From contig JAHFTH010000005.1 of NCBI GenBank assembly GCA_023269445.1, forward strand, positions 1 through 32,889: a stretch of DNA of 32,889 bases, given 5' to 3'. Made by a program: the position numbers and the translations under genes. Each line of letters starts with the position of its first letter. The first letter of the stretch is position 1. This document shows positions 1 to 23,777 of this stretch, piece by piece. Under the pieces are notes generated by a model. That model worked only from the letters and a program-made list of their open reading frames with translations, ran no database searches and had not been told where the DNA came from. The DNA comes from Lacunisphaera sp. (GTDB taxonomy: Bacteria > Verrucomicrobiota > Verrucomicrobiia > Opitutales > Opitutaceae).

Positions 1-109
1 TGAACTGGCCGAGGCTGCCGATCTGCTTGTGCGCGGCGAGCAACAGGCCGGCCCAGGAGATGGCCAGCGTGGCGAAGACGCCGAGGAAAAGGGTTAGTCC
101 GTTTTTCAT
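1..109 (-). CDS. cbb3-type cytochrome c oxidase subunit II (CcoO)-like, partial (only the N-terminus is in the window)
   Basis: Reverse-strand reading from ATG (cat at 107-109): MKNGLTLFLGVFATLAISWAGLLLAAHKQIGSLGQF..., one N-terminal TM as in CcoO; ATGA overlap with the upstream CcoN-like gene. Confidence 0.6.
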   Translation of the reverse strand, partial: MKNGLTLFLGVFATLAISWAGLLLAAHKQIGSLGQF

Positions 110-1563
110 GCGTGACCCTCCTTGGCCGCGAGGCTCAGGACCGGAGGATTAGTGATCTGCGCGACCGCCGTGCCCTGCGAATTGATCGGGCAGGCGATCC
201 AGATGAAGTTGATCAGGAAGGCCACATGGCCGACCAGCAGCACGCCGAGCACCACGGAGTTGAAGGTGTGCCAGCCCGCCAGCGCCTTGGTGATATCGCC
301 GAACGGCACGGCGGGATCATTCAAGAGGTGGCCCTGCTGCGAACCCGCCACAGCCAGACCGACGGTCAGGAGCACCACGCCGAGCGCGGTGGCACCGAAG
401 TGCGCCTTCACCAGGGCGGTCGAGCGCCACTCCTTGCCCGTCAGGCGCGGGAGGAAGAAATAAGCGGCCCCGAACATGGCGGTGGAGAAGCAGGCGTAGA
501 ACGCGAGCCAGTCCCGCAGGCCGACGAGCAGCGTGAACTGCATGATCGCCGCGAAGCTGCGCATGGAAAGCGCGAGACCCAGCACGGAGCTGAGCAGAAA
601 GCCCGCGATGCTGAGGACAATGAAGCGAAGGGTGAGACTGCCGCCCACCGCGCCGAAGCGACCGGACAGCGTGCCGAGGAAATTCAGGCCGATGATGACC
701 AAGGGAAGGACCAGCATCATGTTGGCGACGATGCCGAGGGAGGGAATCCACACCGGCACGGGCGCGCCGATCAGGCGGCTGCCGCCGGCCAGCGCGGTCG
801 AGGCCACCAGCCACCAGAACGCGAGCGGCGCGAGGTAGTAGTTGCTGATCGGTTTGCCGAGCAGCTTGGGCAGGAAGTAGTAGATGGCCGCGAGGGCGAC
901 CGGCACGAACCACAGGCCGAAGAGACCGTGGACATACCAGGCGTTGACGATGGGTTGCAGCACGCCGCGCACCGGGGCCTTGAAGAGCATCACCTGGGCG
1001 ATGGTGTAGAGCCACGGGAACCAGAAAGCCGCGCCGAAGAGATACCACTGCGAGGCATAGACGTTCTCCGTGTTGCGGATGCTGAAGGTGGTGACGACCC
1101 AGACACCGATGATGGCATAAGCCACCAGCAGAAGCAGGGTCACGTAGCGCGGCATCTCGAGCAGCTCAAAGGAGGTCGAGTAGCCCGCGAGGATGCCGCC
1201 AATGCCGAGCGTAATGCCGAGATTCCAGAACTTGGCGGCGACAAACAGCCAGCCGCCGTGACGGAGAGTGGTGGCCGACAGGCGGGCCATCAGCCAGAGA
1301 CCGAAAGCAAAGGCGGCGTTCATGCCCCAGCCGTAGATGAGCGCATTCTGCGCGGCCGGCGCGAGCCGGCCGTGGGTGAACCACTCACAGCCGGACAGGA
1401 AGCCAGGAGTGTGCAGCTGGATGTTCGCGGCCAGTTGCAGCGCGCCGCCGAGCAGCAGCCAGAGCAGCGCGGAACCGAAGAACACGAGCACGGGCCACTT
1501 GGCGGAGGCGTCGATCTCCTGCTGCTCGGCCCGGGCGTTTTGATCGTTGGAATTCATCGGCAA
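106..1563 (-). CDS. CcoN-like heme-copper oxidase subunit I homologue, apparently lacking most metal ligands
   Basis: 485 aa multi-TM protein; WYVHGLFGLWFVPVALAAIYYFLPKLLGKPISNYYLAPLAFWW and GAAYFFLPRLTGKEW are typical of cbb3 subunit I, but HH and HxH motifs are absent. Confidence 0.75.
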   Translation of the reverse strand: MPMNSNDQNARAEQQEIDASAKWPVLVFFGSALLWLLLGGALQLAANIQLHTPGFLSGCEWFTHGRLAPAAQNALIYGWGMNAAFAFGLWLMARLSATTLRHGGWLFVAAKFWNLGITLGIGGILAGYSTSFELLEMPRYVTLLLLVAYAIIGVWVVTTFSIRNTENVYASQWYLFGAAFWFPWLYTIAQVMLFKAPVRGVLQPIVNAWYVHGLFGLWFVPVALAAIYYFLPKLLGKPISNYYLAPLAFWWLVASTALAGGSRLIGAPVPVWIPSLGIVANMMLVLPLVIIGLNFLGTLSGRFGAVGGSLTLRFIVLSIAGFLLSSVLGLALSMRSFAAIMQFTLLVGLRDWLAFYACFSTAMFGAAYFFLPRLTGKEWRSTALVKAHFGATALGVVLLTVGLAVAGSQQGHLLNDPAVPFGDITKALAGWHTFNSVVLGVLLVGHVAFLINFIWIACPINSQGTAVAQITNPPVLSLAAKEGHA

Positions 1564-1566
1564 GGG

Positions 1567-1875
1567 TTACTTCTTCGCGTGATCGCGGACGGTGAGTTCG
1601 ATCGCGCGATCAATCGGCAGACGGACGACACCGGCTTTCTGGTCGATCCAAGCGTAGCTGGCGGCCTCGGCGTGCTCCTTGGTGCGGTGCTCGGCGAGCA
1701 GGGTCTTGCGGTCGGCCGGGGTGCGGACGCCTTCCACCTGCTGCACGGCAGCGGCATGGGGCGTATAGATTTTCTTCGCCAGCCAAGCAAAGGACGCGAA
1801 GCAGGCGATCACGATCAGCGCAGTGAAGACCGGGGTGCGGTGCGGAAAGGAAAAATTGGCGGGAGTATCACTCAT
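1567..1875 (-). CDS. Small single-TM protein found with ACIII/oxidase clusters (hypothetical)
   Basis: ATG at 1873-1875 overlapping the actF stop; MSDTPANFSFPHRTPVFTALIVIACFASFAWLAKKIY...YAWIDQKAGVVRLPIDRAIELTVRDHAKK. The listed ORF 1567..2220 is an N-terminal over-extension through actF. Confidence 0.7.
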   Translation of the reverse strand: MSDTPANFSFPHRTPVFTALIVIACFASFAWLAKKIYTPHAAAVQQVEGVRTPADRKTLLAEHRTKEHAEAASYAWIDQKAGVVRLPIDRAIELTVRDHAKK

Positions 1876-3107
1876 GGGGCGGTGGCCTCGTGGTGGGTGA
1901 GCGACTCGACGATGCGCGGGTCGCGGATCGGGATGAGCTTGGCGGTGGCGAAACTCTTCAGGTAGGACCAGACGCAGATGCCACCGACGCCGATGACGGA
2001 CGAGAGCACCCACAGCAAATTGATCGAGAGGAACGGCAGCGGCTCGTCGTGCGCGTCCTTGAGGGCCGGCAGGACGTTGTAGCAGAGGTCCACCAGAATG
2101 ATGAAGGCGACCCAGATGCTGATGACCAGAGCCGGCTTCAGCGTGGATTTGCGGCGATAGGACAGCCACGACAGGAAGGGCACGAAGAAATGGCCGAACA
2201 GGAGCAGCATGCCGACCCACAGCCAGTCGCCGTGTTCGCGGATGTTATACCAGAAGGTTTCCTCGGGGACGTTGGCGTTCCAGATCAGGAAATACTGCGA
2301 GAAGGTGACGTAGGCCCAGAACACCACGAAAGCGTAGGCGAGCGCCACGAGGCAGTGCAGCTGGTTGGTGTTGAGCACGCCCTTGTAGTCGCCGCGAGTG
2401 TAGAGCCACCAAGTGATGACTACACCGAAGGCCAAAGCCGCACGCATACAGTTCGCGAAGAACCAGACGCCATACATCGTGGAGAACCAGTGATACTCGA
2501 GGCTCTTCATCCAGTAGATGGCGGCGAAGCTCAGCGCCAAAGCGTTGATCGGGATGCCGAAGGCCGCGGTCTTGCGGTTCATGAACGTCCGTTTCGCCGC
2601 GCCGTCGCCGTCCTGGGTGAAGGAAGCCTTGCGCAGACGGGCCGAGAGCCAGACCCAGCCGGCGAAGAACGCCAGCGTCATGCCGGTGAACATATTCCGG
2701 TTCAGGAAGCTCGCCTTCTTTTGATAGAGGATGTCCTCCCCCACCGTGCCGTGGCCGCCATGCAGCGCGTGACCGAGGTCCATCCAAGGCCAGACGAAGC
2801 CGGGCTTGAGCCACACGGAAACCAGCAGGGGAATGAAGAGAATAAAGAGCCACTTGAAAGCCGAGAGGCCATGCTCGAACTGGCGGCGGATGACCGTGGA
2901 CCAGCCCGCATCCACGATATGGTGAATCAGAATCAGCATCAGCATGCCGATGGCGACCGCGGTCCAATAAGTGATGCCTACAACGTAGGACAGCGCGACG
3001 CCGTGCGCATCGGAAACGAATAGACCGAGCGCGGTGACAGCGAGGCCGGCGAGGCCGGCACCGAGAAATTTGTTCGCCAAGGAAGCGGTGGAGACAGGTG
3101 CGCTCAT
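1872..3107 (-). CDS. actF: Alternative complex III subunit ActF (NrfD/PsrC-like quinol:cytochrome c oxidoreductase membrane subunit)
   Basis: 411 aa multi-TM protein in the canonical position downstream of actE. Confidence 0.85.
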   Translation of the reverse strand: MSAPVSTASLANKFLGAGLAGLAVTALGLFVSDAHGVALSYVVGITYWTAVAIGMLMLILIHHIVDAGWSTVIRRQFEHGLSAFKWLFILFIPLLVSVWLKPGFVWPWMDLGHALHGGHGTVGEDILYQKKASFLNRNMFTGMTLAFFAGWVWLSARLRKASFTQDGDGAAKRTFMNRKTAAFGIPINALALSFAAIYWMKSLEYHWFSTMYGVWFFANCMRAALAFGVVITWWLYTRGDYKGVLNTNQLHCLVALAYAFVVFWAYVTFSQYFLIWNANVPEETFWYNIREHGDWLWVGMLLLFGHFFVPFLSWLSYRRKSTLKPALVISIWVAFIILVDLCYNVLPALKDAHDEPLPFLSINLLWVLSSVIGVGGICVWSYLKSFATAKLIPIRDPRIVESLTHHEATAP

Positions 3108-3108
3108 G

Positions 3109-3744
3109 TTACTTCAGCCCTCCGCGCTGGTCGGGGGGGACATCATCGATGGTGCCGTGGTGCGAACGCTGGAGGGCGCGCACGTAGGCCACCACGGCCC
3201 AGCGGTCATCGGGACTGAGCTTGTCGGCGTAGGGAAACATCGTGTTCTTGCCGGCGGTGATCGTGTTGAAAATCTCGCCCTCAGCCATCGTGCGCAGGCG
3301 GTCGTCGTGGTAGGTCGGAGTGGCGACCATGCCGTAGGACTTGGTGATGCCGTTGCCGTCACCCAGCGCGCCGTGACACGGAGCGCAATAAATCTGAAAG
3401 CGGCCCTGACCGTGGCGGACCACAGCCTCGTTGATCTCAATCGGGAACCCACGGACAAACGAGCCGTCAGCGTTCTTGCCGGCGTAGTGCGCATCATCGG
3501 CGCGGAGGAAGGCGGGGTCGGACTGATTGGCGTCCCGGCCGAACGGCACGGTGCCGGCGGGGACCGGACGGTCGGCGCGGCCGTCGGCAAAGAACTTGGA
3601 TTCAGCCTGGGCCTTATATTTGGCCTGATGGTCCATGTCGGGGAACACCTCGATCGGCGGGCGGGTGGAGATCATGCCGCGAAAGCCCATGACCGAGAAG
3701 AGCAGCACAGTAACGAAAGCGAGGGTGTAGTAGGCGTAGCGCAT
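3109..3744 (-). CDS. actE: Alternative complex III subunit ActE, monoheme cytochrome c
   Basis: One CxxCH motif (CAPCH) followed by a cytochrome c-like C-terminus (MFPYADKLSPDDRWAVVAYVRALQ); position in operon. Confidence 0.88.
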   Translation of the reverse strand: MRYAYYTLAFVTVLLFSVMGFRGMISTRPPIEVFPDMDHQAKYKAQAESKFFADGRADRPVPAGTVPFGRDANQSDPAFLRADDAHYAGKNADGSFVRGFPIEINEAVVRHGQGRFQIYCAPCHGALGDGNGITKSYGMVATPTYHDDRLRTMAEGEIFNTITAGKNTMFPYADKLSPDDRWAVVAYVRALQRSHHGTIDDVPPDQRGGLK

Positions 3745-3745
3745 C

Positions 3746-4276
3746 TTATTCCTCGAGTTCGACGATGTCCTTGCCGCCGGCCTTCGCGAGGAGGTCGCGG
3801 GTCGCTGTGGCGTTGAATTTCGGGTCGTTGGCCTCGATCACAATGTAGAAGCGGTCGTCACTGGCCCGGACGAACTGCGGGGCCTTCATCACGGGGTGAT
3901 AGTGCATGGGCAGTTTGTTCAGGAAGAACATGCCGCCGATGGTGGCGAAGGCGGTGAAGAGAATCGTCAGCTCGTAGGAAACGGGGAACGCGAACATCGG
4001 GCTGAACATGGGCTTGCCGCCGACGACCAGCGGATACTCAACCCAGCCCAGCCAGGCGATGAACGACATGCCGGTGCAGAAACCGGTGATGCCGCCGGCG
4101 AGCGAGAAACGCGGCACCTTGGAGCGACGCACGCCCATGGCGTAGTCGAGCCCGTGGATCGGAAAGGACGTGATGGCATCCCACTGCGAGTAGCCGGCGT
4201 CCCGCACCTGCTCGCAGGCATGGTAGAGACTCGGCACGGTGTCGAAGGCGGCGATGATTCCGTAATTTTTATTCAT
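3746..4276 (-). CDS. actD: Alternative complex III subunit ActD (DUF3341)
   Basis: 176 aa, two TMs; MNKNYGIIAAFDTVPSLYHACEQVRDAGYSQWDAITSFPIHGLDYAMG... typical of DUF3341. Confidence 0.88.
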   Translation of the reverse strand: MNKNYGIIAAFDTVPSLYHACEQVRDAGYSQWDAITSFPIHGLDYAMGVRRSKVPRFSLAGGITGFCTGMSFIAWLGWVEYPLVVGGKPMFSPMFAFPVSYELTILFTAFATIGGMFFLNKLPMHYHPVMKAPQFVRASDDRFYIVIEANDPKFNATATRDLLAKAGGKDIVELEE

Positions 4277-4286
4277 GGCTGGTTCC

Positions 4287-5717
4287 TCAGTGTTTGGCGC
4301 CGTGCGGATCGGCGGCGGGGATGACAGCCTTCACCTCGGACATCGGCATGATGGGCACGAAGCGGATGAAGAGGAGGAACAGGAACGAAAAGACGCCGAA
4401 GGTGCCGAAGAACGTGAAGATCTCGACGATGCTCGGCGAATAATAGCCCCAGCTCGACGGCAGGAAGTCGCGGGCGAGCGAGGTGACGATGATCACGAAG
4501 CGCTCGAACCACATGCCGACGTTGACGAAGATGGAGAGGATCCAGACGAGCGCGGTGTTCTCGCGGACGGACTTGAACCAGAAGAACTGCGGCGTGATGA
4601 CGTTGCAGCCGATCATGATCCAGTAAGCCCAGGCGTAGTGGCCGAACGCACGGTTGATGAACGCGAAGCCTTCATACGGATTCGCGCCATACCACGCGAT
4701 GAAGAACTCCATCGAGTAGGCGTAGCCCACCATGGTGCCCGTCGCCAGGGTGATCTTGCACATGCAGTCGATGTGATACTGCGTGATCAGATCCTCGAGG
4801 CGGTAGACGGCGCGCAGCGGGAGCATCAGCGTCATCACCATGCCAAAGCCGGAGAAAATGGCGCCGGCCACAAAGTAAGGCGGGAATATCGTCGTGTGCC
4901 AGCCGGGGATCAGCGACACGGCGAAGTCGAACGACACGATCGTGTGCACGGAGAGCACGAGCGGCGTCGAGATGCCCGCGAGGATCAGGTAGGCCATCTC
5001 GTAATTGCTCCACTGGCGGTTGGAGCCGCGCCAGCCCATGGCAAAGAATCCATAGATGCGGGCCTTGAGGAAATTTCCCGCGGCGGTGAAGCGATCGCGC
5101 ATCGTGCCGAGGTCGGGGATGAGGCCGATATACCAGAAGAGCACCGAGACCGTGCCGTAGGTCGAGACGGCGAACACGTCCCACTCCAGCGGGGATCGGA
5201 AATTCTGCCAGATGCCGTTCGAGTTGGGGAACGGGAAGAGGTAGCCGGGCAGCACGGCGAACCAGATGCGGCCGACGTGGAAGACCGGGAAGATGGCGGC
5301 GCAGACGACGGCGAAGATCGTCATGGCCTCGGCGGCGCGATTGATGGACGTGCGCCACTTCTGGCGCAGCAGGCAAAGGATGGCCGAGATCAAAGTGCCG
5401 GCGTGGCCGATACCGATCCAGAACACGAAGTTGACGATGTCCCAGGCCCAGTTGACCGGGTTGGCGTGGCCCCAGACGCCGACGCCCGTGGTGACGAGGT
5501 AGGTCAGGCCGGCGATGGTGAACGAAGCGATGATGCCGGCGAGGCCGAAGCACCACCACCACCAGACCGGCGTCTTGCCCTCGACGATGCCGCAGATCTT
5601 GTCGGTGATCCACTTGAAGCTGCGGTTGTTCTCCACCAGCACGCGGCGGGGAATCGCGACGGGGTTGACCTCGGCGAGGATGGCGGGAGCCGGATGATCG
5701 GAAGCGTGGCCGGACAT
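4287..5717 (-). CDS. actC: Alternative complex III subunit ActC (NrfD/PsrC-like membrane subunit)
   Basis: 476 aa multi-TM NrfD-like protein following actB; ATGA-type overlap with actB. Confidence 0.9.
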
Positions 5718-8700
5718 CAGTTATGCCCTCCGTGTTCGACGGCAGGCTTCTCGGCCTCGTGACCGTGCGCGGCACCGTGAGCGTGCGCGGCACCGTGAGC
5801 GTGCTCGGTGTGGCCGTTCTTCTTGTTATACTCCACGCGGCTGAGCGGGAGGGCGGAATAGTCCGGCATGAGTTCGTTCGGGTTGCGGAGCTTGCCGAGG
5901 TAAGTCGTGCGGGGGCGGACGTTCAGGTAGCCGAGGACGGCGTAGTCCCGGTCCTGCGCCTTGAGTTTCGAAACCGCGCTGTCTTCCCGCAAAATGTTAC
6001 CGAAGACGATGGCTTCGACCGGACACACCTGCTGGCAGGCGGTCTTGACGGTGCCGTCGGGAATCTCGACGTCGCCGCTGGCGCCGGCCTTCCGCTTCTG
6101 GGCGATCTTGGCCTGCTGCACGCGCTGGACGCAATAGGTGCACTTTTCCATGACGCCGCGCATGCGCACGGTGACATCGGGGTTCTTCACCATCTTCACC
6201 AGCTCGGGCATCTCGCTCTGATGACCGAGCGGACCCATGTAGAGGGCATCGGTGGCGCGCTTGTTGAAGTCGAAGAAATTAAAGCGGCGGACCTTGTAAG
6301 GACAGTTGTTCGCGCAATAGCGGGTGCCGATGCAGCGGTTGTAGGCCATCACGTTGATGCCTTCGTCGTCGTGCACCGTCGCGTTGACCGGGCACACGGT
6401 CTCGCAGGGCGCGAGTTCGCAATGCTGGCAGGTCATGGGCTGCATCGTGACTTGGGGATCCTCGGGGAGAATCTTGTTCAGCTGCTCGCCGCCAATGGGA
6501 ATCTGGCGCGTGTCCAAGTTGCCGTCGGAGTAATAGCGGTCGAGGCGGATCCACTGCATCTCGCGGCCGCGCAGGACCTGGTCCTTGCCGACGATCGGGA
6601 TGTTGTTCTCGGCCTGGCAGGCGACGATGCAGGCGTTGCAGCCGATGCAGGTGTTGAGGTCGATCGACATGCCCCACTGGTGGATGCCGTCGAGGTTCGG
6701 GGTCTCGTAGAGGGAATTGCCGCGGGGCGTCGTGCTGGCAATGAACGCCGGGGCTTTCCCCTTGTCGGCTCCAAGCACGGCCGGCGTGTGCGACTCCATG
6801 CCGATGCTGTTCACGAAATCGGGATTATCTTTGTATCCGCTTTTCACTTCGGCGTGTGAATCGCTCTCGTAGTTGGCCTCGCGCACGATGTCGCGGCCTT
6901 CCATCGACCAGTGCTCCTGGGTATTGGCGAGCTTCATGCGGTCGCCGGTCTTCACCAGCTTGGCGCCGGTGGCGAAGCCCATGCCATCGCTCGTGCGCAC
7001 CGCATAGGCGCTGAAACCCGCATTCGTGCCGATGTGGCCGGAAATTTTGCGGCCGTAGCCGAGCGGGAGGACAATGGTGTAATTGGCCAGACCGGGCTGG
7101 ATGTGCATCGGACCGCGCACCTTGAGGCCGTTGCTCATGGTCACTTCACCGATGTAAGCGTTCTCCTTGCCCTGCGAATACTCGGCCTCTTCCTTGCGCG
7201 CGACCTGCAGCAGGCTGCCGCCGGGGACGATGCCGAGCTCCTTGGCGAGACGCGGGCTAACGAGAATGGCGTTGTCCCACGCGATCTTCGTCATCGGGTC
7301 CGGGCACTCCTGCAACCAGCCGTTGTTGGCGAAGCGGCCGTCGTCCATCTTGTGGTCGGTAGCGAAACGGACCTCGAGGTTGTCGGCGGAGAGCGCCGCA
7401 AAGGCAGGAACGTTGGCGAAATCCCAAGCTTTCTTCGAATTGAGGGAGACGTTGACCGTCTTGTAGGCCGAGCCCGCGAGCAGGCCGTCGTGGAGGAATT
7501 TCTCGAACGCTTTCTTGCTGTCGCCGCTGGCGAGCTTGCTGATGGTCGCGAAAACCTGCGCGTAGGCATCGGGGTTTTCCTCGCCGGCCACGCGGGCCAG
7601 CAATTCGACCTCGGAGAGGCCGTTGAAGAGCGGCATGATCATCGGCTGCACCGGGACGACCGTGCCATCCACCGTGCGGGCATCGCCCCACGACTCGAGG
7701 TAGTGCGTGGCCGCGAGGTGCGTGCCGGCAAGAGCGGAGGTCTCGTCGTTGTAGTAGCCGAAGCGGATAACCTCCGGCACGGACTTCAGCGAGGCACCGA
7801 ACTCCAGATCGGCCGGTGCGTTGTAGGCAGGATTGCCGTTGAGGATGAGGAGGGTCTTGACCGAGCCGCCCTTGATGGCGGTGGCGAGGGCGGTAATCGT
7901 CGAAGCAGTGGACGGCTCGACGGCGACGAAGTCGATCGTCTTGCCGACATTATTCAGCTTGGCGTTGATCGCGTAGGCGAGCACGTGGACTTGCACGGGC
8001 TGGTGGGCACCGGCGAGCACGAGGCTTTCGCCCGGGTGCTTCATCAAATCATTGGCGCACTCCTCGATCCATTTGTCCTTGTTCGGGAAATCGAGGCCCT
8101 GCGCGAGGAAGGAGAACGCATCGGTCCCGATGATCTTGCCGGCGAGCGCAGCCGTCAGCGCCAGCACGTGGCTGCTCGCGAGGCGCAGGCGGTGGTCGGC
8201 CATGCTGCCGGTGAGCGAGAAGCCGCTCTCCACCGCATAGAGGCGGTTCATCGGGTCGGTCGGCTTGGTCACACGGCGGCCCTTGGCGAACTCGCGGGCG
8301 TAATAGAGCGAACCGGCCTCGGCGTGGAAGAAATCAGCATCAAGACTGAGGATGCGCTTGGCGGCGGCGAAACGGTAGAGCGGCTTGACGTTCTGGCCGA
8401 AGGCGGCCTGCGCAGCGGCGACCGGTGGCTCGTCCTGCACGGGCTCGTATTCGGCCCAGATGGCGCGGGGAAATTCTTTCTTCAGCTTGGCGACGAGCCG
8501 GGCGCGCGTCGGCGAGGCGGATTCATCGGCGAGGAACGCGAGGCCTTCGCCGTTGTCCTTGTAGGTGCTGTGGATCTTCGCGAGGAGGGTGTTGACCGCG
8601 ACGACATCGAGGGTCTTGGCGCCCTGCGTGTGGGCCGTGGCGCGCTCGGGATCGTAGAGATCGAGGACCGATGCCTGGGCGAGGAGCGAGCTGGCGCCGC

Positions 8701-9100
8701 CGTGCGGCAGATAGCTGGGGTTGCCTTCGACCTTGGTCGGCCGGCCCTGATGGGTCTCAGCGAGGAGCGGGATGGCCGACTTGCGCAGCGGCATCGCCGT
8801 GGCAAAATAAAGCGGCAGGCCGGGGACGGTGTATTCGACCGACTTGCCGTAGGGCAGAATATGTTTCTCCGGGCGGCGGCAGCCCGCGAGGCCCAAGCCG
8901 CCGAGGGCGAACGAAGCCGCCATCAGGCGCATGAACTGGCGGCGATCCACTCCGTCCATGCCGGCGGCACCCTCGGGGAACTCACGGGCGAGGTGCTCGC
9001 GGAAGCCGGGCGTGTCGGCCAGCTCGTCGAGGCTGCGCCAGTATTTCGGGCCGGTGAGCTCGCGTTGCGCAGGGGCGGAATGATCAAATTTGCGTTTCAT
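5717..9100 (-). CDS. actB: Alternative complex III subunit ActB (TAT-signal, molybdopterin-oxidoreductase-like plus Fe-S ferredoxin domain)
   Basis: 1127 aa; twin-arginine start [23 protein letters not shown]; Fe-S motifs [55 protein letters not shown]...[11 protein letters not shown]. Confidence 0.93.
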
Positions 9101-9753
9101 CAGCGATGGCAGCCGGAGCAGCTGGTGGGCGGTTTGACCTTCCAGTCCGTAATAAATTTGTGGGCGTCAGCAATCTTGCCTTGGTCGGCGAGCGTCTGGG
9201 AGTCGAGATTGTAGACATCCTTCGGGTCGCGGATGCGGGAAGCAGGGTCGCGATGGCAATCGAGGCACCAGCTCATGCTGTGGGGCTTGTCCTGCCGGAC
9301 GACCGTCATCTCGTTGACCTTGCCGTGGCACTCGACGCAGCTGACGCCGCGATTCACGTGCACCGAGTGGTTGAAATAAACGTAGTCGGGATTGTTGTGG
9401 ATCTTGACCCACGGCACCGGGTCACCGGTCCGGTAGCTCTCACGCACGACCTCGAGCAGCGGGCTCTGGGCCTTGATCAGGCTGTGGCAGTTCATGCAGG
9501 TCTGCGCGGCCGGCACGCTCGAGGTGGCGGATTTCTCGACCGAGGCATGGCAGTAACGGCAGTCGATGCCGAGCTGGCCGGCATGCAGGCTGTGATCAAA
9601 GGGGACAGGCTGGACCGGCTGATAACCGACGCGCAGGTAGGCCGGGGTCGCGTAGTAGGTGATACCCGCCGTCGCGACACCACCGAGCACACCAAGAAAG
9701 ATCAGGATCTGCAGCGGCAGAGCATTGGCGGACTTCGGGAAAATCTTGGACAT
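9100..9753 (-). CDS. actA: Alternative complex III subunit ActA, pentaheme cytochrome c
   Basis: Five CxxCH motifs (CRYCH, CMNCH, CVECH, CLDCH, CSGCH). Start placed at the ATG of MSKIFPKSANALPLQ; the 9801 start in the ORF list is a TTG extension. Confidence 0.92.
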   Translation of the reverse strand: MSKIFPKSANALPLQILIFLGVLGGVATAGITYYATPAYLRVGYQPVQPVPFDHSLHAGQLGIDCRYCHASVEKSATSSVPAAQTCMNCHSLIKAQSPLLEVVRESYRTGDPVPWVKIHNNPDYVYFNHSVHVNRGVSCVECHGKVNEMTVVRQDKPHSMSWCLDCHRDPASRIRDPKDVYNLDSQTLADQGKIADAHKFITDWKVKPPTSCSGCHR

Positions 9754-9972
9754 GGAGGTGGCTGACGGAATTCGCCCGGACGGAGAGGGATCGGCTGGCA
9801 AGCCCTCAGGTTAAGCGAAGAATACTAACGAGCGGTGGGTGTGCGGTAAAAAAATAACCCCCTGAGCAAAGAAGCCGTCCGGATAATGTAAAACAAAATT
9901 TCCACCCAACCTAAAGTCGGGGAGAATATTAACCCAACTGCGGGCCTGAATTTTAACGCTAATCGTCGCCTG

Positions 9973-10635
9973 TCAGGCGCTGCGTTCCAGCAACTGGCTC
10001 CCCCATCGGCGCCGACAATCGGCATAGAGGTCAGCGTCCTGCTCGTTAACCGCCAGGATTGCCTGGCGGACGGCGAAATCGAGTTCGTAGCGTCCGCCTG
10101 ATTTCTCCGGATTGATGTTGTCCCGTCTAGAGGGCGGCAGCGGGATGCCGAGCTGTTGCGCCATCACTGCCAGGGACCGGTCAAATTCCTCTACAATACC
10201 GATGAAGAAGAAATCCGCCGGTTTCTTGCTCCCGAAGTAACGGGTCATTTCATTTTGCACCAGCGGCAGGGCGGCGTAGGCAGTCAGGGACAGCTTCTTA
10301 CTGTGCAACTCGTGGCAGACGGGGTGCATTGGATCCGGGTCACGCAGCCGGTGATAATAAGATGAGACCACCCGCTCGACCGGATCTCTCACCCAAGTAA
10401 TCAGGCGGGCCGCCGGGAAAAGGCCCGTCAGCTGATCCGTTTGATAGTGGCCGTGCACACAGGTCGCATCGGATGGCACCTGCTCGACGACCCGTCCGGC
10501 TGCATCCGTTATCTGCCAGTAATTCAACACAAACCCCGAGCCGAAATGTTCCTTCAGGATGTTGCGGATGCTGACCCCGGCGGTTTTGGGGATGTGGATG
10601 CTGAGATACCTGTTATGTGGAGGGATGGGCTTCAT
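9973..10635 (-). CDS. Sulfotransferase family protein
   Basis: N-terminal 5'-PSB-type loop IHIPKTAGVS and 3'-PB-type RDPVERVVSSYYH motif. Confidence 0.8.
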   Translation of the reverse strand: MKPIPPHNRYLSIHIPKTAGVSIRNILKEHFGSGFVLNYWQITDAAGRVVEQVPSDATCVHGHYQTDQLTGLFPAARLITWVRDPVERVVSSYYHRLRDPDPMHPVCHELHSKKLSLTAYAALPLVQNEMTRYFGSKKPADFFFIGIVEEFDRSLAVMAQQLGIPLPPSRRDNINPEKSGGRYELDFAVRQAILAVNEQDADLYADCRRRWGSQLLERSA

Positions 10636-10842
10636 ACTTCGTCTAGACAGTCGAGGTTACTTCACCTGCTACTTGATTGGCCCAGAATTCAAGGGAGCAG
10701 TTACCAAGCCAAGACGGCCGTCTTGCACGATTGGTTACAACTCCAATTCGATCCGCCAAAACACGGGAAGTTTTCCCGTTAAGTGCCGGGAATGTGGGCA
10801 TGAAACCAGTCGGCCGCTGTTTGGTCGGCTCCGAACCAAATT

Positions 10843-10947
10843 TAACCACGGATTGCTCGGATTCGGTCTGGATCAGCTGGCGCCGAGCCTATGGCTGACA
10901 GATAAACCAATATCTACAGGTCTCTTCTTCGCGCTGCTTCGTGGTTA
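10843..10947. repeat. Short element bounded by inverted TAACCACG...CGTGGTTA termini (MITE/dispersed-repeat-like)
   Basis: taaccacg at 10843-10850 and its reverse complement cgtggtta at 10940-10947, in a noncoding gap. Confidence 0.45.
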
Positions 10948-10965
10948 GACTTGCCTTGGTCAGGC

Positions 10966-11718
10966 TCAGGTCACGAATTGCCCGTCGCGCATCGGCTTGA
11001 TCTCGTCGCAGCGGTTGGCGATGTCGGGATTGTGGGTCACGAGAACGACGGCCTGGCCGTTTTCCTTGGCCAACCGGGTGAGCAGGTCGAAAACAATGCC
11101 CGAATTCTTCGCATCGAGATTACCGGTGGGCTCGTCGGCGAGAATGATGGCGGGCTGGTTGGCCAGAGCGCGGGCAATAGCCACACGCTGCTGCTCGCCG
11201 CCGGAAAGCTGGGTGGCGAGACGGTGCGTCTTGTCGCCCAGGCCGACATCACTCAGTAACGAGGCGGCCCGGGCCGCCATCTCCTCTTCGGTGAGCTGGC
11301 CCAGCTTGCGCATGGGCATCATCACGTTGTCCAGCGCGGAGAATTCCTGCATCAGAAAGTGAAACTGGAAGACGAACCCGATATGTTCGCCGCGGGCGGC
11401 CGTGCGGTCCAGATCGCTGCTGTTCGACATGAGTTGGTCGCGGATCCAGATCGAGCCGTCGTCCGGCTGGTCGAGCAGGCCGAGGAGATAAAGCGTCGTG
11501 CTCTTGCCACAGCCGGAGGGACCGACGATGGCCGTGACATTACCGCGCCGGGCCTCGAAGGAGACGCCGCGCAGCACATGCACCCTGCCCTCCCCCTGGC
11601 CGAGATAGCGGTGGAGATTCTCGCAACGCAGTGCGATGTCAGCTGAGCCGCCAGCCGGCGGCGAGAGGCGGGAGGCCGGAGGAGGGAGACCGGAGGAATC
11701 TGACGACGGGAGAGGCAT
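10966..11718 (-). CDS. ABC transporter ATP-binding protein (LolD/MacB/DevA-type)
   Basis: Walker A GPSGCGKST, signature LSGGEQQRVAIARAL, Walker B IILADEPTGNLD. Confidence 0.92.
   Translation of the reverse strand: MPLPSSDSSGLPPPASRLSPPAGGSADIALRCENLHRYLGQGEGRVHVLRGVSFEARRGNVTAIVGPSGCGKSTTLYLLGLLDQPDDGSIWIRDQLMSNSSDLDRTAARGEHIGFVFQFHFLMQEFSALDNVMMPMRKLGQLTEEEMAARAASLLSDVGLGDKTHRLATQLSGGEQQRVAIARALANQPAIILADEPTGNLDAKNSGIVFDLLTRLAKENGQAVVLVTHNPDIANRCDEIKPMRDGQFVT
11661..11695. repeat. Purine-rich heptameric repeat tract (GGAGGCC/GGAGACC-like), left arm of an inverted pair
   Basis: gcgagaggcgggaggccggaggagggagaccggag; 13-nt cgggaggccggag (11669-11681) is the reverse complement of 12145-12157. 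Confidence 0.6.
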
Positions 11719-12080
11719 TAGAAATCGCGCTTCCTCACTTGAACATACTTGTGGAGCATTGCTGAGACTTTGCGGCTCCTTTCAATCAGTTCGCTGGAAG
11801 TTGCAGAATCTATCTTGCCCAGCTTGGCCGCCAAGTAAACTTGCGTTCGCAATTCGCCACTGGATCCCCGGGAGTAGTTCAGAAATTGCACAAACTCCTT
11901 GTTGGATTCGCGTTCGTAGCCCTCGGCGATATTCGAGGGAACTGACACGGCTGCTCGGCACATCTGATCCCGGAGGCCGAAATCACGTGGGTTTTCCATG
12001 CTCTGATATACCCGCGTGGCCAATTGCATACCTTCCTTCCAGACTTCGAGGTCTTCGAATCGATTGATGGTGGATTTCAT
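11718..12080 (-). CDS. Four-helix-bundle protein (23S rRNA intervening-sequence / S23 / avd-like family)
   Basis: 120 aa; FEDLEVWKEGMQLATRVYQ...FGLRDQMCRAAVSVPSNIAEGYER...EFVQFLNYSRGSSGELRTQVYLAAKLG is characteristic. SD-like AGGAG upstream; TAATG overlap with the ATPase start. Confidence 0.9.
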   Translation of the reverse strand: MKSTINRFEDLEVWKEGMQLATRVYQSMENPRDFGLRDQMCRAAVSVPSNIAEGYERESNKEFVQFLNYSRGSSGELRTQVYLAAKLGKIDSATSSELIERSRKVSAMLHKYVQVRKRDF

Positions 12081-12140
12081 GACTGCTGCTCCTTTCTTAT
12101 TATGGGTGTTGGTATTTATGGCCCGTAAATTGTTCGGCGT

Positions 12141-12171
12141 CGGTCTCCGGCCTCCCGACTCCAGCCTCCCT
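12141..12171. repeat. Heptameric repeat tract, right arm of the inverted pair
   Basis: cggtctccggcctcccgactccagcctccct; ctccggcctcccg at 12145-12157 is the inverse of 11669-11681. Confidence 0.6.
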
Positions 12172-12186
12172 GTGACGGCTGCGCCG

Positions 12187-13446
12187 TCACTGCGACGTCC
12201 CCCGGATGATGTCGCCCGGCTCGAGCCGCGCGGCGCGCCGGGCCGGGATGATGGCCGCGGTCATGACCACCACGGCGGCGCTGAGCGTGCCGACCACATA
12301 ATGCCAGATCGACCAGTGCACTTGGAAATTATCGGCGGAGAAGATGCCCCGGAGGTGGATCGGATATTTGGACACGCCGTAGGTCACGCTGGCGCCCAAC
12401 GCCCAGCCACCCATGGTGCCGAGGACCAGCACGATGGTGCCCAGCCAGATGAAGATCCGCGCGATGTCCTGCCGGGTGTAGCCCATGGAGCGCAAAATCG
12501 CTATTTCCTTGGTCTTCTCGATGACGATCATCGCGAGCGTGTTGAACATGCCGAGGCCGGAGATCAAAATGATGGTCGAGACCGTCAGCGCGGCGGAAAT
12601 CTGCAGGGCGTGGAAGGCCTCCAGCCAACTCACCTCCCGCTCCTGCCAGCTCTGGGCGCCATGCTTGAGCACCTGCTCCATCTGCTCGGCATCCTGCGGG
12701 GCGCGGTTCCGGTCGAAGAGCGCGACCTGGATGAAGGAGGCCCCGGTGGTCTTCTTCAGCAGTGAACGGGCCTCGCCGAGGTGCATGAAGATACGCACCC
12801 GGTCGATGTCCCTGACGCCACTGGCGTAAATCCCGGCCAGCCGGTAGCGCCGCTGCTCGGTGCCGGCGCGCAGGATCAGCGAGTCGCCTACGACCAGCTG
12901 CAGGCGATTCGCCAGTTCCTGGCCCATCAGCACGCCTTGGGGTGTGGTCCGGAAGTTTTCCAGGCTGCCGCTGCCGCGGCTGACCTGGGCCGCGAGGTCG
13001 GAGACTGCCAAATGGTCGTCGAGGCGGATGCCATAGACCTTGGCCGTGTCGTTCTTGAAGGAGCTGTCCGCGACGACGGATCCTTCCACGACGATGGAGA
13101 CGCCCGAGACATTCCGGAACCGGCGCAGGGCATCCATCATCACGTCGGGCTCCTCGACGCCCTCGACGTATTTGCGCGCCTCGCGCGCTGCCGCCACCTC
13201 GAACTTGCTCTCGAAGTGGGCCCCGGTGGCGATCATCGGAAACATCGTGGCCTGAATCTTATCCTCGATGCGGATCGCGCCGTTCGTGCCGAGGATCGTC
13301 TTGACGAAAAACTCCTCGAAGCCGCTCGTCTGCGCCTGAGTCACGATGAAAAAGCCCACGCCAAATACGATGCCGCTCAGGCTCATGAGCATGGAGCGTT
13401 TCCGGGCAGTCAGAAAGCGGAGGGCGATGCGGAGATTGGTCGACAC
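12187..13446 (-). CDS. ABC transporter permease (FtsX/MacB/LolC-like)
   Basis: STNLRIALRFLTARKRSMLMSLSG N-terminus; FtsX-like C-terminal TMs with RSMGYTRQDIARIF. Start set at GTG (13444-13446); the listed start at 13566 overlaps the HlyD gene. Confidence 0.88.
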   Translation of the reverse strand: MSTNLRIALRFLTARKRSMLMSLSGIVFGVGFFIVTQAQTSGFEEFFVKTILGTNGAIRIEDKIQATMFPMIATGAHFESKFEVAAAREARKYVEGVEEPDVMMDALRRFRNVSGVSIVVEGSVVADSSFKNDTAKVYGIRLDDHLAVSDLAAQVSRGSGSLENFRTTPQGVLMGQELANRLQLVVGDSLILRAGTEQRRYRLAGIYASGVRDIDRVRIFMHLGEARSLLKKTTGASFIQVALFDRNRAPQDAEQMEQVLKHGAQSWQEREVSWLEAFHALQISAALTVSTIILISGLGMFNTLAMIVIEKTKEIAILRSMGYTRQDIARIFIWLGTIVLVLGTMGGWALGASVTYGVSKYPIHLRGIFSADNFQVHWSIWHYVVGTLSAAVVVMTAAIIPARRAARLEPGDIIRGTSQ

Positions 13447-13468
13447 GGCGGCCGGGGCCCGGGGGCGG

Positions 13469-14605
13469 TTAGTTCTCCAGCACTTCCGTGCGCACACGCT
13501 CGCCTGAGCGATAACGGTCCTGCTTCTCAACGATGACCGCGTCGCCGGCGTCGAGCCCGCTGACAATCTCTAAATAATTGAGGCTGTCGTAGCCTTTCTC
13601 GACCTTGCGCAGCTCCACCTGGCCGCCGGCAACAACATAGACGTAGTCGCCGACCAACGCGCGACGGGGGATGATGACCGCATTGGCCCGCTCGGAAATG
13701 ATGATACTCACTTCGCCGGTGAGGCCCGGCATGACCACGCGCCCCTCGGGCAGGGCCACATCCAGATAGACCGAATAGCGCTGGGTCGTGACATCGGCCG
13801 AGGGCAGCACCTTGGAAATGGTGGCGGGATACTGGTCGTTGCCGAAGGTCAGGAACCGCACGGAGGCGCGTTGGCCCATCTTGATGGCGGCGAAATTATC
13901 CTCGCTGAGCTTGGCCTCGATGGTGCGGCCGACCGAGATGAGGTTGGCGATAGGGGCATTGCTGCCGATGAGATCGCCCACCCGGGCGAGCACCGCCGTC
14001 ACCACGCCGTCGGTGGGAGCGATGATGGTCATCTTGGCCATCTCGCGTTCCTTGGCCCGGAGGCTGTTTTCCCAGTTCTCCAGAGCCAGCTTGAGGTTCA
14101 CTTCATCCAACTCGCGTTTTTGCACGGTCTGCTGGTAGTTGCGGCGCGCCTTCTCGAATTCGGCGGCGGGATAGGCCCCCGCTTTGGTCTGCCGTTCCAG
14201 ATTATCCAGGGTGTCGCGCTCGTTGAGTTCCCCGGCGCGCAGGGTCGAACCGACCTCGACGCGCTTTTTCGCCGCCGTCAGCTCGTTTCTGATGCGCTCG
14301 ATCTCCAGTTCGATGTCGCCGGAATCAATGACCACGAGCACGTCGTTTTTATAGACGGGCTTGCCGATGATGAGCTCGCTGGTCTTCACGCGGCCGCCGA
14401 CCTCGCTTTTCAAAATCACATCGAACTCCGCCTTCACTTCCACCGTGCCGGGCACGCTGCGCACGGCCTTGCCGCGGGACGCGGCCACGACTTGGGCGAC
14501 CGGGCGCGTCAGGTAACTGACGGCGTAGGCGCCCCCACCCACGAGGGCGACCAGCAAAACGAGGCGCACGCTCCACTTGCCGAGGGATGACGGAGCTTTG
14601 CTCAT
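13469..14605 (-). CDS. HlyD/MacA-type periplasmic adaptor (membrane fusion protein)
   Basis: 378 aa; N-terminal TM, biotinyl-lipoyl-like halves, coiled-coil hairpin, IIAPTDGVVTAVLARVGDLIGSN motif. Confidence 0.9.
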   Translation of the reverse strand: MSKAPSSLGKWSVRLVLLVALVGGGAYAVSYLTRPVAQVVAASRGKAVRSVPGTVEVKAEFDVILKSEVGGRVKTSELIIGKPVYKNDVLVVIDSGDIELEIERIRNELTAAKKRVEVGSTLRAGELNERDTLDNLERQTKAGAYPAAEFEKARRNYQQTVQKRELDEVNLKLALENWENSLRAKEREMAKMTIIAPTDGVVTAVLARVGDLIGSNAPIANLISVGRTIEAKLSEDNFAAIKMGQRASVRFLTFGNDQYPATISKVLPSADVTTQRYSVYLDVALPEGRVVMPGLTGEVSIIISERANAVIIPRRALVGDYVYVVAGGQVELRKVEKGYDSLNYLEIVSGLDAGDAVIVEKQDRYRSGERVRTEVLEN

Positions 14606-15954
14606 TTGTTGGCCAGATTACCCACCACGGGATCTTCACTCACCGTGCCGAGAAAGGTCGTCAGCTGGTTGAAGTAATCCGCCCGGGAAGTGTAGGCCGT
14701 GATCTGGGAATCGAAGTAGCCCAGCTTCGCGACGCTGACATCTTCCTCGGCGATCACCCCGCGAGTGAACTCCTCGTTCTTGGACCGCAGGTTCCCCTCG
14801 CCCGACACGAGCAGCCGGTCATAGATCGAGACATAGCGGGCGGAGAATGCGGCCAGGCGGGCCTGCGTCTGCGCCTGCTGGGCTAGGTTCTCCGTCAGGC
14901 TGCGGTAATCGAGCTGCATCTGCCTGACTTTAGCCAAGGCGCTGCGCACTCCGGCACCGGCACTGAAACCGTCAAAGAAAGTCCAGTTGATCGAGACGCC
15001 GCCGAAGTAGGAATTAACCTGATATTTTTGCGCCACGTTGATGGTGTAGCTCTGTTCATCCTGACTGAGGCCCAGAACCAAGTTTGCCTTGGGCCGGAGC
15101 CGGGTTTTCTGGATCTTCAGATTGAGCTGCTCGATTTCCAGTGATTTGCGGAAAGTCTCGGCCTCGATCGTGACGGGATCCTTCTGCGTCAGATAGCCGG
15201 CCAAAATACGCTGAACGGCCTCATTTTGATCCGCCACCGCCGGGATGTCGTCCGGGATTTCATCGTCGCTCAACACCGCACTGCCCGTGAGCCGGGCAAA
15301 AGAAGCCTTCTGGTTCTCCACGTCAAAATTGGTCCGCTCCAGACTGATTTGGGCCCGTTCGGCGTCCATGCGGATGCCGAAAATCTGGGCCTCGGAAATC
15401 ACTTTCTTCGCTAAGCGTTCCTCGCCCTGCACCTTCAGTTTGGCGGTGTAGTCGGCGTAGAAGGCGGCTTTCTTCGCGATCAGTTTGTTGAGAATCAGGC
15501 GGAGATATTGGGCGCGCACTTCCTGCGCCAGCAGCCGGTAGCCATCGCGATACTGACCTTGGGCAATGGCCTGCCGGATTTCGCCCATCTTGGCGTAATT
15601 GCGCCGGTCACCCCAATGAAACAGCGGTTGGTTCAGCGTGAAACTATAGGACTCCTTGGTGACATTGAGCCGGCCGACCAGATCAGCCCGCTTGTCCCGG
15701 GCCTCGTAGAAACTGTAATAGCCACCGATCGAGGGCAGCATACTGGCCCGGGCCGCGATCCGGCCGTCCTCCGCCATCTCCAGATCGATCGCCCGGCTGA
15801 TCATCCGCGGCGATTGGGCAATGGCCTTCTTCAGGATGCCGTCCAACTGGGGATAGATCTGCTCCGGCATCACTATACTGTCCGCTGCCACAGTCCTCGC
15901 GCAGAGTCCGGCCATGAGGAAAGATAACGCGGCAAATAGTCTCGGGATTTTCAT
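14602..15954 (-). CDS. TolC-family outer membrane efflux protein
   Basis: 450 aa; signal peptide, duplicated helical TolC-like repeats, adjacent to the HlyD gene (ATGA overlap). Confidence 0.87.
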   Translation of the reverse strand: MKIPRLFAALSFLMAGLCARTVAADSIVMPEQIYPQLDGILKKAIAQSPRMISRAIDLEMAEDGRIAARASMLPSIGGYYSFYEARDKRADLVGRLNVTKESYSFTLNQPLFHWGDRRNYAKMGEIRQAIAQGQYRDGYRLLAQEVRAQYLRLILNKLIAKKAAFYADYTAKLKVQGEERLAKKVISEAQIFGIRMDAERAQISLERTNFDVENQKASFARLTGSAVLSDDEIPDDIPAVADQNEAVQRILAGYLTQKDPVTIEAETFRKSLEIEQLNLKIQKTRLRPKANLVLGLSQDEQSYTINVAQKYQVNSYFGGVSINWTFFDGFSAGAGVRSALAKVRQMQLDYRSLTENLAQQAQTQARLAAFSARYVSIYDRLLVSGEGNLRSKNEEFTRGVIAEEDVSVAKLGYFDSQITAYTSRADYFNQLTTFLGTVSEDPVVGNLANK

Positions 15955-20942: not shown

Positions 20943-23777
20943 ATGATCCCGCTGCTGCTCGCGCTGATTTTCTTCGTCCACTTCGCCGTCGTGGGCCGGG
21001 CGACCTTTGCCCTGCTGGGCCTGCGCTTCGGCCATGTGCGCACCTGGCTGCTGGCCCCCACCCTCGGTCTGGCCGTGACCGGCTTGATCGTCATGGTGCC
21101 CAACCAGGCCGGCGTGCCCATGGCGGCTTATGCCCGACCGCTCATCATCATCATCACGCTGGGCGCGCTCGGTGTGCTCGTCTGGCGGAGGCTTGTCCCG
21201 CCCAAGGGACTCGGGGCCTTCGTGCTGCTCGCCGCCGGCGCGCTGCTGCTCGGGGGCTGGCCCGCGCTCGTGCATGGCTTGAACTGGGTGAGCTATGGTA
21301 ACGACGACATGACCAACTACTGCCTCGGGGCTGAGCGTTTCCTGCGGCACGGTTTCTACGACATCCCGACCCCCGCCGAACTCGCCGGCGGGGACTATTC
21401 CCAACTTTCGTGGCTGTTGAATGTCGCCACGATGGAGCGATTCACCAGCCAGCTCCTCATTGCCAGCGCAGCGGGGACCGCCGGGCTGAATACCGTGCAG
21501 GTTTTCATGCCGGCTATCATCGCCTTCGCTCTCACCCAGCTTTGGGCGATCACGGCCTTGGTTTATTCCAGTCCGCGGCGGCGAACGCAGGCCCTGATTG
21601 CCGGCACCATTTTGGCCACTGCCCCCCTGTGGCACTACGGCACAACCTATCAGTTGATCGCCCAAGTAGGTGGCCTCGCCCTGCTGGCCGCCACCTTGGT
21701 CGTCATCGCCCGCACCCGCTTCCCCCGCAGCCTGGCCGGCCGGCTGAAATTTGCCCTCCTTTGCGCCCTGCTTATTTCCTCGCTCAGTATCACCTATCCC
21801 GAAGTGATCCCCTTCCTCGTCATCGGGTGGGGCCTCTATCTCGTCCTGCGGCTTATTGCATTGCGGCATTGGGTGACGGGTCTGCTGCCCACCATCGCCC
21901 TGACGCTGCTCTTCGTGCTGGTGCTGCTCCGTCACAACGTGCTCAGCGCCGTGTTCTGTTTGTTGGGGCAGACGCAACGCGGGATGAGTGCCATTGAGGC
22001 GGCCAATAACATTTCCCTGTTCCCCTATTTCCTCATGCCGGCCGGTCCGTCATTTTTCTTTGGCTTGGATGTCATTGTCTGGCGCTACACCGACCCGTTC
22101 ACCTCGCTGACGTTGATTGGGGGCTTCGCCGCGATTTTCGTCACGCTGGGTCTCTGGTTGCGCGGACTGCGGGCACACGCCATCTCAGCGACAGTTCTGG
22201 CCGGCATGTTCCTGATCGGAGCATTGCTCTTTGTTACCAACAACGGCTTCGGGCTCTTCAAACTGGCGATGTTCGCACTGCCTTTCGTCGCGATTGAGCT
22301 GGCTCGTCTGGCTGACCTCCGGTTCCCGCGCCCGGTAGTTTGCACGCTTTTCGTGGCGCTGCTGATCATTTGGATCACAGGCAGCGTGCGCTACACCGGG
22401 GCCTCACTGGCAAACGATTCCAACACGGTAAACGAACTCCTGGGCGCCTCGGCCTCCCGGGGCAACCTGCCGGCCAAGTCGACGCCGGTCTGGTCGGATA
22501 TGACCAGTTCGCCGGTGGCGAAATTGTTCATGCTGGAGAATTCGTCGCCGCGCTCGACCTTTCTCAGCCAGATTTTTGGCGCTTGGTTCTTTGGTATCGC
22601 CTACCGGTCTTACCCGGACTGGGCCTATCAAATGTTACCCGGCGATGTGCACGACACCACCGCCATGCAGCTCGTCGAATATATCCAGCGGCAGGTTTAT
22701 CATCCCCAGCATGCGCTTGGGCTTACCTTCTGGAGTCACGCCTCGTCGGAAGAAACGCCTCTCGACCCGGTGATTGCTCTCGTCACATCCCAAGCCGAGC
22801 TTCGTTCCTTTAACAAGCTGTCCGCCGATTGGTCCCCCGGCCCGGGGCTGTTCAACTACACGGCTCTCTCCGGTCTTAAAAATCATCTGGTGTTCATTCA
22901 GTCGAAACAAGGTCAGCACTACTACCTCGGTGATGCCGGCCTGATTTCTGTCTATAAGCCCGAAAGCGATCCTTACTCCCCGAACGGCTACTTTTTCGTG
23001 ATCGGCCGACACGTGCTTTTCCGCGTGCTCAATCCTACCGAGACGGTCCGACTGCGTTTGAATATGACCGCCTCGCTACTAGGCGACGGCCGCACCGCCC
23101 TGCCCGAGCAAGCAACGATCAAGGGTGGAGCTTCCGGGCCGGCCGCGCTCGGCTTGGTGGGTGCCGGCAGCGCCAATGTTTTTTCGGCTCCACTGCAACC
23201 CCAGCTGGTCAGTGGCGTGCCCTATGTGGCCTTGGACTTGGGCCGGCCGGTCATGCCCATCGGCCGTCGGGCCTCGGGCCTGCAAGGACTCTACAACCGC
23301 AACCTCTCGTTTGATACCCGTCTCGGCATAGGCTATTGCCGTGACGTCTCCTTGGTGAGCGAAGCCGACTACGCCACCCGGCCGCACCTCCGGGAGCTCC
23401 GCCGGTTTCCCACGGACCTCGTCGGTCCCGCCGCTATCGAGTATTCCGGCCTCTACGAGGATGGCTGGGTTTCCGCCCATGCCTTTGCTGTCCTCGGTCC
23501 GGTGAATCCCGGCGACAAGGTTACGGTCCGGGCCATGCTGCCCCTGATCCCCGGCACCGCCCCCGCCCCGCTGCACGTCGAGCTGCTGGCCAACGGCGTC
23601 AGTCTCCTCACGCAGGAAGTGGCCCCGGGCCATTTCACGCTGGAGGCTCTGCTGCCGTCGGCCGGCCCACAGGTTAAGATTGAACTGCGGTTTGACCGCA
23701 CCGAGACTCTGCCTGCTCCCGACAACCGGCCCGTAACCGTGCTGCTGGAAGCTCTCACGATCACGCCCTCCTCATGA
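20943..23777 (+). CDS. Large multi-TM protein, candidate GT-C-type glycosyltransferase with C-terminal soluble domain
   Basis: 944 aa; about 12 predicted hydrophobic segments, acidic motif YGNDDMTNYC in an early extracytoplasmic loop, long C-terminal soluble region. Confidence 0.55.
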   Translation: MIPLLLALIFFVHFAVVGRATFALLGLRFGHVRTWLLAPTLGLAVTGLIVMVPNQAGVPMAAYARPLIIIITLGALGVLVWRRLVPPKGLGAFVLLAAGALLLGGWPALVHGLNWVSYGNDDMTNYCLGAERFLRHGFYDIPTPAELAGGDYSQLSWLLNVATMERFTSQLLIASAAGTAGLNTVQVFMPAIIAFALTQLWAITALVYSSPRRRTQALIAGTILATAPLWHYGTTYQLIAQVGGLALLAATLVVIARTRFPRSLAGRLKFALLCALLISSLSITYPEVIPFLVIGWGLYLVLRLIALRHWVTGLLPTIALTLLFVLVLLRHNVLSAVFCLLGQTQRGMSAIEAANNISLFPYFLMPAGPSFFFGLDVIVWRYTDPFTSLTLIGGFAAIFVTLGLWLRGLRAHAISATVLAGMFLIGALLFVTNNGFGLFKLAMFALPFVAIELARLADLRFPRPVVCTLFVALLIIWITGSVRYTGASLANDSNTVNELLGASASRGNLPAKSTPVWSDMTSSPVAKLFMLENSSPRSTFLSQIFGAWFFGIAYRSYPDWAYQMLPGDVHDTTAMQLVEYIQRQVYHPQHALGLTFWSHASSEETPLDPVIALVTSQAELRSFNKLSADWSPGPGLFNYTALSGLKNHLVFIQSKQGQHYYLGDAGLISVYKPESDPYSPNGYFFVIGRHVLFRVLNPTETVRLRLNMTASLLGDGRTALPEQATIKGGASGPAALGLVGAGSANVFSAPLQPQLVSGVPYVALDLGRPVMPIGRRASGLQGLYNRNLSFDTRLGIGYCRDVSLVSEADYATRPHLRELRRFPTDLVGPAAIEYSGLYEDGWVSAHAFAVLGPVNPGDKVTVRAMLPLIPGTAPAPLHVELLANGVSLLTQEVAPGHFTLEALLPSAGPQVKIELRFDRTETLPAPDNRPVTVLLEALTITPSS

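Follow-up and report, generated by a model that had tools for sequence, protein, structure and literature searches.

A homolog of CcoN, the subunit I of cbb3-type oxidases, is encoded in an alternative complex III (ACIII) operon of Lacunisphaera sp. and has lost five of its six heme/CuB histidines together with the active-site tyrosine. On its sequence, the protein (N in the following) is homologous to CcoN but stands outside the functional oxidases, in which six histidine ligands and a tyrosine cross-linked to a CuB histidine are found; one of the six is present in N. We infer that N is free of metal cofactors and does not reduce O2. The ligands are gone while the fold, the ORF, and the operon are retained, which supports a role as a metal-free membrane anchor that holds CcoO and CcoP at ACIII, the two forming an electron wire toward a separate acceptor. 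We assign this reading a probability of about 0.6.

Gene, fold, and operon context

The window, i.e., the whole stretch of DNA analyzed, comprises 32,889 nt (GCA_023269445.1, contig JAHFTH010000005.1, positions 1 to 32,889). The sequence-only reading had placed the gene at 106–1563; an ORF lies there, on the minus strand, which that reading had not given. The frame reaches 1563 if the TTG at this position is the start, the ATG at 1557 being the likelier one, and N is 483 to 485 aa long depending on the start codon. Residue numbers count from the TTG. The plus-strand frame at 106–1563 is without any family match and was rejected as a gene.

N belongs to the heme-copper oxidase (HCO) superfamily by its homologous 12-TM COX1 domain (PF00115, 3.2e-44, 151.9 bits versus a cut-off of 34.8). 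The ccoN equivalog TIGR00780 also matches (1.5e-36), yet the score of 126 bits is below the cut-off of 583, as are the 239 to 248 bits of ligand-complete act-linked relatives. CcoN chains from the PDB match at 1.8e-26 and 1.1e-25. The AlphaFold model, for which the window protein and 46 homologs were used as input, has a mean pLDDT of 89.2 and a pTM of 0.90, and Foldseek places it on the cbb3 CcoN 3mk7 (TM 0.87/0.91), with NOR and A/B-type oxidases ranking behind. The likeness to CcoN-type subunits along the whole length, which had been claimed by eye, is borne out by the Pfam, PDB, and Foldseek matches. Viral contigs were searched as a source of N relatives, and none were present there.

Table 1. 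Features of the ACIII operon end of the window and ligand positions of N (ligand numbers in brackets refer to P. stutzeri CcoN).
Feature	Position	Strand	Remarks
ccoO (FixO) 5′ end	1..109	minus	cut by contig end; ATGA overlap with N
Ligandless CcoN homolog (N)	106..1557	minus	ATG start at 1557; 12-TM COX1 fold
R350-D351-W352	508..516	minus	replace H-x-H (heme b3/heme b axial ligands)
S262-R263	775..780	minus	replace CuB His-His pair (H257-H258)
T256	796..798	minus	replaces cross-linked active-site Tyr (Y251), helix VII
H212	928..930	minus	CuB ligand (H207); sole ligand position still His in window N
A71	1351..1353	minus	replaces helix II heme b His (H60)
Small protein	1567..1875	minus	102 aa; by eye, a single hydrophobic helix predicted; gene located between actF and N
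ActF	1872..3107	minus	named from operon position; place conserved in relatives; no Pfam match
ActE	3109..3744	minus	mono-heme cytochrome c (CAPCH)
ActD	3746..4276	minus	PF11821, 4.7e-60
ActC	4287..5717	minus	NrfD family, PF03916
ActB	5717..9100	minus	molybdopterin-oxidoreductase-like + Fe-S
ActA	9100..9801	minus	pentaheme cytochrome c, 5 CxxCH

The ACIII genes actABCDEF occupy 1872–9801 of the window (Table 1), with the true ActA start probably at an internal ATG. They are followed by the small protein gene, whose product is without a Pfam match though conserved in the operon. N starts 9 nt past this gene and overlaps ccoO by ATGA; because of the overlap and the short gap, N looks translationally coupled, and the earlier description of an intact, coupled ORF holds. 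ccoO begins MKNGLTLFLGVF. In relatives, the order is actABCDEF-small-N-ccoO-ccoP, i.e., a cbb3-type cluster with both ccoO and ccoP, of which the window contains the ccoO start. This order is kept across nearly the whole sampled family, contig ends permitting. The CcoO proteins of the relatives are full-length and mono-heme (one CxxCH, FixO PF02433), and the CcoP-like protein is likewise mono-heme, with one heme instead of two.

Loss of the metal ligands

Pairwise, HMM, and multiple alignments to ligand-complete relatives concordantly place A71, H212, S262, R263, R350, and W352 in the six ligand columns. The substitutions named in the sequence-only reading, including the remaining H212, are therefore exact, and mapping onto CcoN locates the ligands at no other positions. 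The protein contains neither an HH nor an HxH motif anywhere, as had been stated. With the alignments in agreement, misalignment with ligands located elsewhere was rejected. Sequencing error was rejected too, because the same substitutions are common to a 90% identical relative and to more distant ones from other assemblies. The H212 column holds Asn, Gln, Ser, or Thr in many relatives, and the tyrosine column holds Gly, Ala, Ser, or Thr in most ligandless ones.

Distribution and repeated loss

In profile searches, the scope of which was the Verrucomicrobiota, N was found in 135 of 150 genomes of the same family. Named relatives come from Oleiharenicola (90% identical), Lacunisphaera, Didemnitutus, Rariglobus, and other Opitutaceae and are mostly MAGs. 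By their six histidines, the family sample divides into 91 proteins with zero to two, 23 with all six, and one (L071) with five. L071 (G103), the sole copy of this kind, has H257 changed to Arg and Y251 to Gln; loss may be at an early stage here, or the changes may be errors, the MAG being 65% complete.

Order- and class-wide sampling reveals many families with a ligand-complete act-linked N and others in which N is ligandless or partly so. Written as seven letters in the order heme b His, CuB His, Tyr, CuB His, CuB His, b3 His, and b His, the intermediates read YHTRHHH (L265), YHAQHQQ (L264), QQAHHHN (L283), and HNSQRYH (L322). With this series, the order in which the cofactors were lost can be put to the test. 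In a genome made up of a single contig of 5,957,605 bp (L347/G003), N is ligandless (QQGRHQQ). Ligand-complete relatives of N that are unlinked to act (L047, L051, L130, L273, L049, and L299) coexist with act-linked copies, which are ligandless in G049, G110, G144, G172, and G003 and complete in G013.

Further COX1 proteins are present in nearly all sampled genomes and are complete where checked. The genome of the window itself has a separate ligand-complete A-type oxidase and a CcoNO fusion, which answers the earlier question of a second, complete oxidase. Nine genomes were checked in detail: the ligand motifs are intact in 28 other COX1-family proteins and absent from the single act-linked copy of the set; in two A-type members (L348 and L349) the script chose another HH pair, with the usual WSHHM visible.

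The ligandless proteins are nested among ligand-complete act-linked relatives. In a large quick tree, built with the ligand columns removed, the 91 family sequences form one clade (SH-aLRT 99) and the ligand state changes twice. A wider quick tree gives four changes and a careful, thinned tree seven, at least six of which are forced by well-supported branches; a single origin of the ligandless state occurs in 0% of the bootstrap trees. Single loss was set aside on the basis of the careful tree, and long branches may have drawn the ligandless rows together in the larger ones. The changes are read as losses because regaining six histidines is implausible. Ligand loss would thereby have occurred at least six times independently, a count that is sensitive to sampling and long branches. 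The class-wide recurrence, the ligand-complete act-linked relatives, and the position of ccoO at the contig edge go beyond the sequence-only reading.

Close pairs of ligandless N have dN/dS values (Nei-Gojobori) of about 0.08 to 0.24, compared to 0.03 to 0.16 for ligand-complete pairs, and the operon neighbors fall in a similar range. By these ratios, ligandless N is under purifying selection. Mean column entropy is 1.82 bits in the ligandless clade versus 0.73 bits in the complete proteins, the two samples differing in size. About 48 columns, largely Trp, Gly, Pro, and Tyr, are conserved in both groups, and the ligand columns diverge.

Methanotrophs of the Methylacidiphilaceae

Five genomes of this family, which belongs to the same class, all encode a member of the pmoA/amoA family. 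Each of the five has a ligandless act-linked N, in which the second His of the CuB pair is the sole ligand left, and N-O-P is followed by a gene for aa3 subunit I. In Ca. Methylacidiphilum kamchatkense Kam1, the ligandless N-O-P unit is flanked by ACIII and by a ligand-complete aa3 oxidase that retains WAHHMY, GHFHYMM, and FLGHPEVY. The Kam1 genome paper treats this locus as a cbb3 oxidase and associates it with a high affinity for O2 (PMC6688271). A review counts the cbb3 type among three types of complex IV and mentions its position beside ACIII (PMC8498564). The residues at the ligand positions argue against the act-linked locus of Kam1 as a working high-affinity cbb3 oxidase. Annotation would need correction for loci counted as such, e.g., those of Methylacidiphilum (PMC6688271, PMC8498564).

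In one methanotroph genome (L343, G376; about 5836–13140), a gap of ~7 kb separates actF from the ligandless N. In M. caldifontis IT6, nos genes are reported to lie inside the ACIII cluster, with aa3 and cbb3 genes adjoining (PMC11102522), and the gap may correspond to such a nos cluster.

Proposed role and alternative explanations

N is read as a cytochrome holder because it is kept by selection with c-type partners, yet without metal ligands. It would be a former subunit I of the cbb3 type (C-family) in which the sites for both hemes (b and b3) and CuB and the tyrosine site were lost and which stayed in the ACIII supercomplex as the 12-helix membrane anchor of CcoO and CcoP. Electrons from menaquinol would pass through ActB/ActA/ActE to the c-hemes of CcoO/CcoP and from there to the separate acceptor. 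In Methylacidiphilaceae, the aa3 oxidase whose gene comes next in the operon would accept them, and the gene order ACIII, N-O-P, aa3 fits such a wire. In Opitutaceae, the acceptor would be a caa3 or cbb3 oxidase encoded elsewhere, or soluble carriers. That the ligandless operons of Opitutaceae are mostly without an oxidase gene directly downstream speaks against the anchor. The contacts between N, CcoO/CcoP, and ACIII are assumed from canonical cbb3 oxidases and operon order.

The heme-binding motifs of the partners are nearly always kept: CxxCH is present in CcoO in 88 of 89 ligandless operons, the sole exception (L121) being a truncated fragment, and in CcoP in 86 of 86, where the CcoP Met is likewise retained at 100%. 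The distal heme Met of CcoO is replaced in about 18 of 87 ligandless operons, 13 times by His, and in 0 of 24 ligand-complete ones; the wire itself would therefore be undergoing alteration. The Met-to-His change could possibly give a bis-His heme. Operons with a changed Met are L036, L037, L060, L072, L074, L076, L079-L081, L090, L096, L097, L100, L106, L112, L114, L116, L122, and L125. A CcoO/CcoP wire is not obligatory, because the ACIII of Flavobacterium johnsoniae can feed aa3 directly, without an N-O-P-like unit and without ActE (PMC8552683).

A decaying pseudogene that hitch-hikes in the operon would account for the diverse ligand columns, the entropy above that of the complete relatives, and one fragmented copy (L165). 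The frames are open in the window and across the family sample, except for a ligand-complete copy with a TGA inside the match (L031), dN/dS is well below 1, and at least six parallel losses were each followed by retention, so that decay is hardly credible. The view of the sequence-only reading, a retained ligandless oxidase-fold subunit rather than a pseudogene, is supported by the actABCDEF-adjacent homologs, which share the substitutions and lack signs of relaxed selection, as well as by the 91 family members and the fold. Residual redox function of N, with a single heme or metal bound by leftover or substitute ligands, is unlikely. Some lineages do retain two to four ligands (e.g., L265 and L283), and H52 and H389 (alignment numbering, i.e., protein numbering + 1) are common in the ligandless clade. 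The latter two are equally conserved in complete proteins and do not occupy ligand positions, so they are not replacements. There is no universal replacement ligand, because the 44 rows of the ligandless alignment share no invariant His, Met, or Cys.

The earlier proposal had offered two roles for N. Its structural or docking half fits best and is refined here to a holder of the CcoO/CcoP c-hemes, whereas no positive evidence was found for the quinone/proton half. A metal-free ion-translocating or quinone-binding module driven by ACIII is rather improbable: part of the fold is strongly conserved and proton translocation by ACIII itself is unsettled (PMC8498564), but the active-site Tyr at the end of the K-pathway is lost, N without metal has no redox driver of its own, and the few conserved columns specific to the ligandless proteins form no new charged pathway by eye. 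That metal loss marks a new function, with N as the proton/quinone module of an enlarged ACIII, is quite doubtful; if true, complex III would have gained a pump or a second quinol site from a dead complex IV. We see equally little likelihood in an assembly or regulatory subunit of the ligand-complete CcoNO or aa3 of the cell, acting in heme/Cu delivery or as a decoy. The complete COX1 proteins elsewhere in the genomes would provide its target, but N keeps a strict order with actABCDEF, ccoO, and ccoP and not with other oxidase genes.

Relation to known systems

N shares the 12-helix fold and the place before ccoO and ccoP with P. stutzeri CcoN (3mk7), from which it differs by the missing ligands and tyrosine and by a score far below the ccoN cut-off. 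ActB of ACIII has the fold of a molybdopterin oxidoreductase without its cofactor. N resembles ActB in that a respiratory complex has taken over an enzyme fold for a structural purpose, the superfamily being another one. An ACIII-linked C-type oxidase of Opitutaceae and verrucomicrobial methanotrophs has been noted, after Refojo 2010 (PMC8498564). It is the same locus, with act genes directly followed by ccoNOP-like genes; that review treats it as a working oxidase, whereas many members, including Kam1, are without ligands. In F. johnsoniae, ACIII and complex IV (aa3) form one particle (PMC8552683, PMC8361435). The partner there is a complete aa3, whereas here a ligandless cbb3-like unit follows act, alone or before aa3.

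A literature search that covered a minority of the subscription journals yielded no earlier account of a subunit I of the heme-copper oxidases without ligands, nor a case of cofactor-free reuse of their fold. A published HCO classifier discarded sequences without six histidines (PMC3084760), and because of this filter ligandless N-type proteins would have been invisible to it. N would be a core subunit of the heme-copper oxidases that selection maintains without its metals, with several parallel origins. This suggests a second role for the oxidase scaffold in ACIII supercomplexes, one on which selection can act.

Other genes in the window

Two long ORFs at 20943–23774 (944 aa) and 25490–28249 (920 aa) are without a Pfam match and lie near genes for glycosyltransferases and a Wzt-type ABC transporter. 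A gene for a 23S rRNA intervening-sequence protein (PF05635, 11721–12080) is located inside a MacB/HlyD/OEP-type efflux group (10969–15954).
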